64,000 nucleotides of DNA. It comes from Thunnus maccoyii (lineage: Eukaryota > Chordata > Actinopteri > Scombriformes > Scombridae). Below are positions 46,101 to 52,269 of the stretch, piece by piece (positions within the stretch are counted from its first letter, which is position 1; the number at the start of each line of letters is the position of its first letter). Both the position numbers and the translations under genes were made by a program. The stretch covers positions 8,705,151 to 8,769,150 of the forward strand of contig NC_056548.1 in NCBI RefSeq assembly GCF_910596095.1, read 5' to 3'. The notes under the pieces were generated by a model. The model saw only the letters and a program-made list of their open reading frames with translations, was not told the DNA's origin and did no database searches.

Positions 46101-47530
46101 GTTAACCTTTCTTGCACTTAACTGAGTTATATGTCTTCTTGATAGGTGCGATTGAGCTGGACCTGAACCGCTTCCCGCGTGGTGCTAAGACTGCCAAGCA
46201 GTGCACCATTGAGATGGTGACAAATGAAACAGAGATGCCCATGGTCTCCATCTTCAAACAGAAGAGGATCAAAGGCTGGTGGCCATTTGTGGCCAGAAAT
46301 GAAGAAGATGAGTTTGAACTCACGGTAAGTCACAGTAAATGAAAGCCAGTAAATCAAAATGTTGGTTAGGACTGATTTACTGAAACAATAAAAAACTGGA
46401 CTGAATGTATCAGAGATGGACAGTTGATTGTGCTTCTAACTTGAGCTTATTGGTAATGAGGTCATCTCTTATTGCGGCTCTGCGATTTCAAGCTCAAGTT
46501 CTTGTTAGTGTGCCTGACACTTGTAACATCATCAGACTAATCTGTACCTGAAACCCTTGTGATGACTGAAATTGTTTTTTGTCTTTTCAGGGAAAAGTGG
46601 AAGCAGAGCTGCACCTTCTGACAGGAGAGGAAGCTGAGAAAAGCCCAGTTGGTGAAGGACGCAACGAACCAGAGCCGCTGGAGAAACCCAAGTATGAAGG
46701 ATATTCTCTAAACACCCCACTGTTGTCCTCCTTATTAATGACCACTCTTTAGATCTGTTTCTCTTAATTACATTGTTCAGTTTATTCCTTGGCTTGGCTA
46801 CCTTTCACACCTCGTTATAAACACACGGTTACACAGATGCAAGCATAAATACAGATTCTCAGTCAGTCCAGCTTGACTAAAAAATTAACTCCAACAAGTG
46901 GTCTAATGCAAAACAGGCCAGAAATAACAAAATAAATACTATGATAAATACAAATGAATAAATTAAATGAATAAATCTGTCATAAACATAAAAACAAACT
47001 ATAAAACAAACATAAACACTATTTAAAGAAAAATAAAATTACATAATACAATGATAACCAAAATGAGCAATTTCCTGAAACGAGCAAAGACATTTGTACG
47101 AATTTACTTCAACCAAGTTCTGGATTTATGCCTACTTTACATGGTAAGTTGCTGTTTCTTCATATCTTTTGTGTATTTCTACCTACAGGTTCTTAAAATA
47201 AGTTGTTTCTATGTCTTGCCTTTTGCTTTATCTTTGTGTCAGTAATGTCAACTACATTTACATTTAGATTTGGCTTAGAAAGAGAGCAACAATGGCCCAT
47301 AGCGCTGAGAGTCTGTATTACTGAACATTTTGTGTTTCTGTCCTTCCAGCCGTCCAGACACCAGCCTTCTGTGGTTCCTCACTCCCTTCAAAGCCATAAA
47401 ACACTTGGTCTGCAACCAGTACAAGTGGCTGGCCATCAAGATTGTCACTGCTCTCCTGCTGCTAGCCATGCTAGTTCTTTTCCTCTACAGCATGCCTGGT
47501 TACATGGTCAAGAAAATGCTGGGAGCTTGA
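31113..47530 (+). CDS. otof: Otoferlin, C2-domain ferlin of hair-cell synapses (5' end not found)
   Basis: Otoferlin is a tail-anchored calcium sensor for exocytosis at hair-cell ribbon synapses. Forty-two exons close in phase to about 1819 codons; human OTOF has 1997. Exons run 31113-31204, 32378-32417, 32735-32846, 33059-33113, 33311-33442, 33567-33629, 33726-33810, 33908-34067, 34168-34354, 34514-34700, 34926-35149, 35575-35683, 36020-36203, 36501-36621, 36805-36905, 37007-37097, 37194-37310, 37428-37580, 37724-37913, 38061-38185, 38325-38459, 39502-39663, 39753-39872, 39969-40130, 40890-41052, 41241-41314, 41543-41569, 41673-41804, 42024-42096, 42949-43067, 43246-43383, 43610-43741, 43854-43981, 44106-44276, 44545-44705, 44944-45086, 45216-45304, 45462-45560, 45739-45980, 46146-46324, 46591-46691, 47350-47530. 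C2B begins near codon 100 and C2C near 246. FerA/FerB-like regions follow, then C2D near 800, a basic linker ([11 protein letters not shown]) near 1125, C2E near 1280, C2F near 1550, and the membrane anchor. FER1L6 or FER1L4 are rejected on near-identity to otoferlin ([32 protein letters not shown]). It may be one of two teleost paralogues. Confidence 0.95.
32208..32276. repeat. (CATAT)n pentanucleotide satellite
   Basis: About 13 perfect CATAT units lie in an otoferlin intron, roughly 100 nt before the acceptor of the 40-nt exon at 32378-32417. The purity of the array suggests a young, length-variable locus. Confidence 0.9.
40305..40860. repeat. Possible dispersed repeat in an otoferlin intron
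   Basis: This stretch fills most of the intron between the exons at 39969-40130 and 40890-41052, which is larger than its neighbours. Its composition (CTCTGCAGCTCTCTTCGGC, GCTAATGGAGAGTGAACATT) and its ending in a TTAATGCAGGTTTAAAG-like string resemble fish non-autonomous DNA elements that I recall. I cannot confirm a second copy in the window. Confidence 0.3.
47350..47530 (+). CDS. otof: Otoferlin terminal exon, copy a (membrane anchor)
   Basis: This 181-nt exon follows a CTTCCAG acceptor and is entered in phase 2 from the exon ending at 46691. It encodes [19 protein letters not shown], a [11 protein letters not shown] segment, a hydrophobic span of about 18 residues and [10 protein letters not shown], with TGA at 47528-47530. 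It corresponds to the single-pass tail anchor of otoferlin. It is the first of three alternative terminal exons and differs more from copies b and c than those differ from each other. Confidence 0.95.
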
Positions 47531-49365
47531 GATGTCGCTCAGACACCTCAGCAGAAGGTTCCAGCAGTTTCACTAACCAGATGGCCTCTGCCTCTCTCTC
47601 TCTCTATCCACACTTTCCTTTCATTCATAGCATTTTAAAAACTAAATAGCAACAATATTATAATTTAGGTAAAGCATTCAACTAAGATTAAAATAGCAAC
47701 TATTTTCGTAGCAGAACATATTCTACTGAATATTAGAAAGTTGGTTTATTGAATAAGATATTCAAATACTGACTCTCAGCTATCAGGTGAGAAAAAGAAG
47801 ATAATCAACATACTCAGTGTTTATAGAGTTATTTCATATTCTGAAGATGAAGGTGTCGATTTAAAATTGAGGATTTCCAATAGATTACTTTTTTAGCCAT
47901 AATATGCTCACCAGTCTGGAGTGGAGAGAGCTCTCTATTACTGAAGATTAAGGCATTGTGAGAAATAAATCTCTGCACCTGCTTCTGAAGAGGATCAGCG
48001 CATTTCCAAAATCCCAATATGCAGTACTTTGAAGAAAGAAACAACCACTGGTGGGTTTAAGAACTGCATCTAAGATCAATCTGTTGAAGAGAGAATTAAT
48101 AAAGAAAGTAATAGCAGAGAAAGAGAACTGTGTATAAAATATAAGTAGGGCCAGAATGCAGATGTAAAGATATCCCATGATACAAGAAGAAGACTGAGAG
48201 GGCACAAGACAACACTTTTAGATGCTCATTAGCATCAGAGCAGCGGCTCAGATTGGAAATTTGAATCAGTCAAGTACAAAAAGACACAAAAAGTTAGTTC
48301 TGTAAGCATGTGAGAAAAAAATACTTACACAACAATGATGCACAGAACAAAGAAAGAGGAAGAAATTTCATATCGAAGGTTAACATTGTGGAGGGATGGT
48401 CGTGGTTTTGGCCTGATATAGAAAAATAAAATCACAAAACTCATCAGACAAAACTAGACAAGACACCATCAGTAAAAATGGGACCAGTGTAGCCAGTTTA
48501 TGAAGAGGCGCAGCTGGAAGGACCCATAATCTTGTTAATTCAGAGAATGTTTCACATGATCAAGATGAAATTGAGGTAGAAAACCTACAAGCAACAACTG
48601 AAAGAGGCTACAGCAGAAGTGTGGAACCAACTGATCTAAACATCCCTGCAGTAATGCTGCTGTGTATGAAATTTACTGAAATCTTGCAGTGTGAGGACTT
48701 GGATTTCTTACTTTTGAGCCATTTTTATTGATATTCTAGTAAAGTTTGCAGTGATTTATAGGATTTGTATTTGCATTTGTTGGTCAGTAGCATGCACAAT
48801 ACGGCTTTATGACAAATTTGTGAATAAAGTTTCAAGAAAAAGAACATTTTATTCTTTTTTCAGCAGAGTGTAAAAACATAATTTAATAATATCAGCTCAT
48901 CCACATTTTACCCTCTGAAACCAGCAAATCAATAGGATTGTTTGTCACAGGAACAGCTTTGCTCTCATTTTCTATTTGATTAAAAAAAAGGAAGTATTAA
49001 TTATTCTATCAGCCCTAAATTATTAGCCATTTTCCTTTGTACATATGAGATATAGGCAGTGTAAAGAAAGTGAAAAGTGACCATTAACATCAACACAATA
49101 GATACAGACTGGAATTATAGGGCTAAAATACATTCCTCTGTCGATCAATAAGTGTCCTCTTCATCCAACTTCTACACACAAAATAGACCAAGGTGTGTGA
49201 GTAAGCAGGCCTTACCTCGGTCAGATTAGGTTATATCAGCTCTTAATGGGAGCACCCCTCCATAATTCTATGTACATGTCATATTAACTGAAATATTTTC
49301 TTGTTTGACTTGTTGACTGGCTTTGGTGTTTTGTAACACCTGTTTACGTCTCTGTACTCCACCAG
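47531..49365 (+). terminator. otof: 3' UTR of otoferlin copy a, and spacer to copy b
   Basis: The 3' UTR of copy a probably ends after the AATAAA at 48823-48828, which lies in the context TTTGTGAATAAAGT, about 1.3 kb from the stop. The remaining 0.5 kb to the copy b acceptor is AT-rich and without features. The signal sits in the same local context as those of copies b and c, so the 3' UTR was probably duplicated with the exon. Confidence 0.6.
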
Positions 49366-49546
49366 CCGTCCAGATGTTGCCCTCCTCTGGTTCCTCATCC
49401 CCCTCAAAGCTGTGAAACACCTGATGTGTGACCAGTACAGGTGGCTGACCATCAAGATTGTCACTGCTCTCCTGCTGCTGGCTATCTTGGCTCTTTTCCT
49501 GTACAGCGCACCTGGTTACATGGTGAAGAAAATGTTGGGAGCTTGA
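49366..49546 (+). CDS. otof: Otoferlin alternative terminal exon, copy b
   Basis: This is a second 181-nt exon with a strong acceptor (CTGTACTCCACCAG) and the same entry phase as copy a. It encodes RPDVALLWFLIPLKAVKHL, CDQYRWLTIKI, a hydrophobic anchor and [10 protein letters not shown], with TGA at 49544-49546. The frame is intact with no stop or indel. Most differences from copy a are conservative, which suggests selection. It can be joined only as an alternative to copy a or c, because each copy ends in its own stop. Confidence 0.9.
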
Positions 49547-51855: not shown

Positions 51856-52088
51856 TACTATATTATGTGGTATTGTTTAGGGTTATTATGGTATTGTTAA
51901 CACATAATATAGTAATCTAGTCCAAAAACAGTGTATTATGTATTGGGTATCCTTAACAAATAGCATTCTGCAAGATAACAACAAGTTTTTTTTTAGTTTT
52001 CTCAAAAAAGTGCATTTTTCAATTTAGATGATAAAGCCAGATAATTATGGCATTCTTACACATTGTTCATGTCTCTGTACTCCACCAG

Positions 52089-52269
52089 CCGTCCAGACAT
52101 CGCCCTCCTCTGGTTCCTCATCCCTTTCAAAGCGGCAAAACACCTGATATGTGACCAGTACCGGTGGCTGACCATCAAGATTCTCGCTGTTCTCCTGCTG
52201 CTGGCCATTTTGGCTCTTTTCCTATACAACATGCCAGGTTACATGGTGAAGAAAATGTTGGGAGCTTGA
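52089..52269 (+). CDS. otof: Otoferlin alternative terminal exon, copy c
   Basis: This is the third 181-nt exon, with the same acceptor context as copy b (CTGTACTCCACCAG) and the same entry phase. It encodes RPDIALLWFLIPFKAAKHL, CDQYRWLTIKI, a hydrophobic anchor with [15 protein letters not shown], and TGA at 52267-52269. The frame is intact. It is closer to copy b than to copy a. Using it needs a splice of about 5.4 kb from 46691, skipping copies a and b and their poly(A) sites. Confidence 0.9.

Follow-up and report, generated by a model that had tools for sequence, protein, structure and literature searches.

The closest described system is the mammalian otoferlin gene OTOF. In the accounts drawn on here, its exons 47 and 48 are two homologous tail exons with tissue-biased use (PMC10394277), in agreement with the first-pass annotation of the DNA studied here, which had noted that mammalian OTOF varies its last exons between tissues. 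Exon 48 (TMD1) is used in the cochlea. Exon 47 (TMD2) is used mainly in the brain, which by one account uses both (PMC10394277, PMC7768390, PMC5058964). Exon 47 is described as carrying its own stop and being spliced on to exon 48 (PMC10394277). Human deafness variants are reported in exon 48, not in exon 47 (PMC7768390). The two tails distribute differently in HEK293 cells (Redpath et al. 2016, cited in PMC10394277), and otoferlin has been linked to TRC40 (PMC10394277, PMC7768390). Tandem duplicated exon substitution is C-terminal in 77 of 236 human events, and TPM1 has three tandem duplicated 3' exons (PMC9741552). The main text of that paper names neither OTOF nor otoferlin.

We analysed a 64-kb stretch of the Thunnus maccoyii genome, referred to below as the window. 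It contains an otoferlin gene followed by three similar tail exons, copies a, b and c. These probably serve as alternative terminal exons, each with a separate poly(A) site, produced by tandem duplication of an exon 48-like exon while the exon 47-like exon was lost. The gene and its 3' exons are located as follows.

About 32372..52269, + strand: coding span of otoferlin b (otofb), from tblastn with P0049 and P0085.
46591..46691, + strand: last common exon, with the shared donor AA|gtatga after 46691 and a 33-residue translation.
47350..47530, + strand: alternative terminal exon a, ending in TGA, from sequence, translation, tblastn, Pfam and a-type tails in other fishes.
49366..49546, + strand: alternative terminal exon b, tail ...HLMCDQYRWLTIKIV..., ending in TGA, from sequence and Pfam; nearest tree row by path, Scomber scombrus P0003.
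52089..52269, + strand: alternative terminal exon c, tail ...HLICDQYRWLTIKIL..., ending in TGA, from sequence and Pfam; nearest tree rows by path, Gymnodraco X3, Dicentrarchus and Labrus.

The tblastn queries, including P0049 (Plectropomus otoferlin-like, 1795 aa), match exons in order along the window. Outside the tail, identity over the covered residues is 99.4% to P0085 (1581 residues), 96.8% to Pampus and 95.6-95.8% to Scomber. The gene carries the linker GEEAE, as do other otofb models, and by these matches it is the teleost paralogue otofb. The first-pass annotation had assigned the terminal exons to otoferlin. The exon-by-exon body match and the Ferlin_C tail uphold that assignment, which needs the paralogue otofb to be specified. 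An armadillo repeat is found upstream of otofb at 15725-16063 on the + strand (Pfam Arm, 2.3e-11) and perhaps extends over 13794-17694. The neighboring open frames at 13794-14048 and 16469-16759 may be further exons; no Pfam match was found in them.

Copies a, b and c are 181 nt each, are entered in phase 2 after the donor at 46691 and remain open to TGA. Their tails end in a common stretch of 10 residues. Each copy is preceded by a pyrimidine-rich acceptor, which reads ...CCTTCCAG in one case and ...ACTCCACCAG in two. Thus the coordinates, phases, acceptors and stops given in the first-pass annotation were all confirmed from the sequence. Its view of the exons as membrane-anchor tails also stands, as all three exceed the cut-off for Pfam Ferlin_C (PF16165), copy b barely (30.0 vs 29.4 bits). 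A hydrophobic helix of similar hydropathy is present in every copy, and hydropathy does not separate the three. A tblastn search of the window with the three tails found no fourth copy (next match, E 0.029).

Over 181 nucleotides, identity is 148 for a-b, 149 for a-c and 160 for b-c (82-88%). Over 60 translated positions, counting the stop, it is 48, 46 and 51, respectively. Copies b and c are the closest pair, with a dS of 0.30 (Nei-Gojobori), compared with 0.56 for a-b and 0.51 for a-c. The proposal that they are the younger pair is supported. A repeat finder reported three copies of 207 nt that extend from 25 nt upstream of the exon to one base beyond the stop, and no shared repeat in the flanks past 25 nt before the exon. 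Since the copies differ by 12-18% and share no flank past 25 nt, an assembly artefact is unlikely. Between copies b and c, at 50381-51852, lie several direct and inverted repeats, 40-103 nt long, that resemble nested non-autonomous transposable elements.

The three tail exons have diverged under purifying selection. Their dN/dS ratios (Nei-Gojobori) are 0.235 for a-b, 0.261 for a-c and 0.267 for b-c, with 97.5% points from a codon bootstrap of 0.50, 0.59 and 0.61. These values, not near 1, accord with the intact frames and mostly conservative changes noted before. They also argue, with all three frames open, against a single functional copy accompanied by two relics, a reading we consider improbable. 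Copies of this kind may nevertheless decay. In four Oreochromis models (P0109-P0112) the a-type tail is altered (first R to H, TPF to THY and PGY to PSY), which suggests that copy a has decayed in tilapias and therefore that the copies are not equally indispensable. Tails like a and tails like b and c nonetheless end annotated proteins in many fishes, as expected if more than one copy is in use.

These fish tails were collected by a search with the copy b tail, which returned 118 otoferlin proteins among 147 candidates from a database clustered at 90%, where isoforms of one species can hide in one row. We classified 112 tails (P0002-P0113) at five positions and left out P0114-P0119, of which five come from rays or sawfish and one is an odd Amphiprion model. 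The classified tails include 53 a-like, 42 b/c-like and 17 others, and several rows are isoforms of one species. The others comprise six gadiform intermediates, eight from Otocephala, eels and a mormyrid, one mixed tail and two odd ends; two eel rows carry an otofa-like linker. The first-pass annotation had pointed to other percomorph otof loci as a place to find the copies, and both a-type and b/c-type tails are present in the public otofb models of many percomorphs. A protein search for partial transcripts with copy c gave two proteins among 73 candidates (Liparis and Coryphaenoides). The mixed tail, Sphaeramia orbicularis P0028, combines ends of the a type with a middle of the b/c type (CDQYRWLT), the pattern that gene conversion between copies would produce.

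A tree of 70 tails was calculated from 59 columns, which are few for so many rows. The b/c-like rows and the gadiforms form one side of a branch (24 rows, support 99/91). Copy a is located among the a-like rows and is identical to another row. Copy b pairs with Scomber scombrus P0003 (92/96). Copy c groups with Dicentrarchus, Labrus, Lepidogalaxias and notothenioids (90/91), a group drawn open inside. A tree constrained to unite the three window tails is worse by 13.6 log units (p-AU 0.072) and one constrained to unite b with c by 13.7 (p-AU 0.127); with so few columns, neither constraint is formally rejected. An old split between a and b/c is therefore favored but not proven. It probably predates the percomorph radiation, with the split between b and c being younger. 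A joint clade of the window tails, which a recent duplication private to T. maccoyii or an assembly artefact would produce, is thus not formally excluded by the tree. However, the nearest rows to each copy belong to other species. Together with the divergence of the copies and their unshared flanks, this makes such an origin highly improbable.

Protein models from other fishes also argue against a private origin. Bodies and tails were compared in five species, using public models that may be predictions only. In Labrus bergylta, P0032 and P0071 are identical over 1732/1732 body residues and have 12 tail differences, one tail being a-like and the other b/c-like. The Scomber scombrus pair P0003 and P0067 agrees at 1732/1733 body residues with 13 tail differences, again a-like and b/c-like, and comes from contigs of different length. 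Gymnodraco X1 and X2 are identical over 1598/1598 body residues and differ at 6/59 tail positions, both tails being b/c-like; X3 and X2 agree at 1478/1478 aligned residues. The models of these three species fit one gene with swapped tails. The Astatotilapia pair (1415/1525 aligned) and the Sphaeramia pairs (999/1067 and 1058/1105) prove nothing, because the bodies differ as well as the tails. In Etheostoma P0002 a single protein contains an a-like tail followed by a b/c-like one, as would be expected of neighboring exons. P0009, with a b/c-like tail, is presumably spliced, because its 1785-aa frame lies on a 5549-base contig. Judged from these models, alternative tails are not private to the T. 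maccoyii genome, and the array probably represents a long-established fish version of a known arrangement, not a one-off.

We next consider which mammalian tail the copies resemble. A search with the stingray tail P0114 gave matches to 851 of 855 candidates, and the 120 best of these 851 were considered. At least seven two-tail models (human, bat, turtle, Danionella, Labeo, Dallia and Coregonus) run in the order W-type (WHxYRW), then C-type. This order suggests that the W-type tail corresponds to exon 47 and the C-type tail to exon 48. Copies a, b and c are 71, 68 and 63% identical to the human downstream (C-type) tail and 59, 54 and 58% identical to the Polypterus W-type tail, and 12 W rows form a separate branch of the tree (100/99). 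By this comparison a, b and c all belong to the exon 48, or cochlear, kind. Convergence of b and c on the W-type tail was dropped on inspection by eye, K25R being the sole b/c-specific change noticed in common with it. In two otofa-like models, P0121 (Labeo rohita) and P0142 (Coregonus), the protein continues past the C-type tail into a different hydrophobic tail (...FSLPSA...KIFN...). This is possibly a third, divergent otofa tail exon; the Labeo piece matches Pfam Ferlin_C only at E 0.071.

No W-type tail or relic was found in the window, where W-type queries match strongly just the three C-type copies (others, E 0.02 or worse). Nor was a W-type tail found among 103 proteins with the GEEAE linker, a biased set gathered mostly with a C-type query, with W-type proteins drawn from among the matches listed; 15 of the 236 fetched proteins gave no linker match. 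Because all copies are C-type and the window has no W-type tail, otofb appears to have dropped one of its ancestral anchors and to have restored a choice by duplicating the other. The array would have arisen by tandem duplication of an ancestral cochlear-type exon, and the brain-type exon may be missing from otofb generally.

The regions downstream of the copies contain the following sites.

47784..47792, + strand: donor-like site CAG|GTGAGA, candidate exon end at 47786, 256 nt past the copy a stop.
48817..48828, + strand: poly(A) signal context TTTGTGAATAAA after copy a.
50021..50032, + strand: poly(A) signal context TTTGTGAATAAA after copy b.
52655..52666, + strand: poly(A) signal context TTTGTGAATAAA after copy c.

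This 12-mer occurs three times on the + strand of the window, one per copy, and is absent from the - strand. Per 64 kb of one strand, 0.03 occurrences are predicted by a first-order Markov model of 46-54 kb. The AATAAA in it lies 1293, 481 and 392 nt past the stops of a, b and c, respectively. The 3' region of copy a has three earlier AATAAA, at 47964, 48098 and 48425, so the site serving this copy is not certain. Apart from this, the common AATAAA context noted earlier is borne out after all three copies. Separate poly(A) use is plausible from these sites.

The donor-like site past copy a points to another arrangement. Copy a could be an internal exon (47350-47786) with its own stop, spliced to b or c as 3' untranslated region, and skipping it would expose b or c, so that the number of 3' ends in use would be smaller than the number of copies. 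The site scores 10.8, higher than any other donor between 46 and 54 kb, and the window's own site density predicts 0.028 such sites per 300 nt. Mammalian exon 47 is described as working in this way (PMC10394277). However, the same 12-nt context follows every copy. Nonsense-mediated decay, to be expected when a junction lies over about 55 nt past a stop, also tells against this arrangement. Within 300 nt of copy b no donor approaches this score (best, 4.25). The donor score is a rough guide, because the shared donor at 46691 itself scores just 4.98, with 1.13 sites that good expected per 300 nt. Overall, we regard this arrangement as unlikely. A second strong donor-like site (score 10.4), at 47143, falls in the interval that separates copy a from the last common exon, and no exon is recognised upstream of it.

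We therefore favor a choice among three terminal exons. The donor at 46691 would be joined to one acceptor, before 47350, 49366 or 52089, and the transcript would end at whichever poly(A) site follows the exon used. Acceptor choice would thus set both the anchor and the 3' untranslated region. One gene could thus encode otoferlins with the same C2 domains, different 59-residue tail anchors (a membrane-proximal segment and a transmembrane helix) and different 3' untranslated regions. By analogy with mammals, tail choice may be biased between tissues and may affect membrane targeting or perhaps TRC40 insertion, as the first-pass annotation had suggested. Otofb is listed among genes conserved between rat and tilapia gonadotrophs (PMC8234412). 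More tentatively, and with less than even confidence, we suggest that after the teleost genome duplication the ancestral brain-type anchor disappeared from otofb, and that a tissue-specific choice was restored when the cochlear-type exon was amplified twice, with a separate poly(A) site for each copy. This would be a second, independent evolution of alternative tails within one synaptic calcium sensor, possibly matched to release sites in the inner ear, lateral line, brain or pituitary.

What the choice of otoferlin tail does is a question of interest in hearing research. The two mammalian tails differ at many sites. The fish tails are natural near-minimal pairs for testing the role of the anchor, because just 6 to 13 of 59 positions differ in the three pairs compared. 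Fish hair cells are easy to reach and suit tests of what the otoferlin anchor controls.

Among the titles, abstracts and passages considered on otoferlin tail exons, teleost otoferlin splicing and otofb, none describes a three-tail otofb array. Within that scope the claim that such a cassette is undescribed stands, but its kind is known, because mammalian OTOF exons 47 and 48 are a homologous tandem pair with tissue-biased use. In both genes, homologous tandem exons of about 60 codons follow the same linker (PLEKPN|RPD), carry their own stops and encode differing transmembrane tails. The two mammalian copies are a W-type and a C-type exon, the first being spliced on to the second. In contrast, otofb in the window, a teleost paralogue, has three copies, each followed by the same poly(A) context. 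What is new, as judged from the tail sequences, is that all three are of the exon 48 kind, with no exon 47-type member in the window. The array also resembles tandem duplicated exon substitutions such as that of TPM1, where homologous duplicated exons are swapped to change the C-terminus. Unlike in those cases, what otofb would swap is an entire tail anchor, that of a vesicle-fusion protein.
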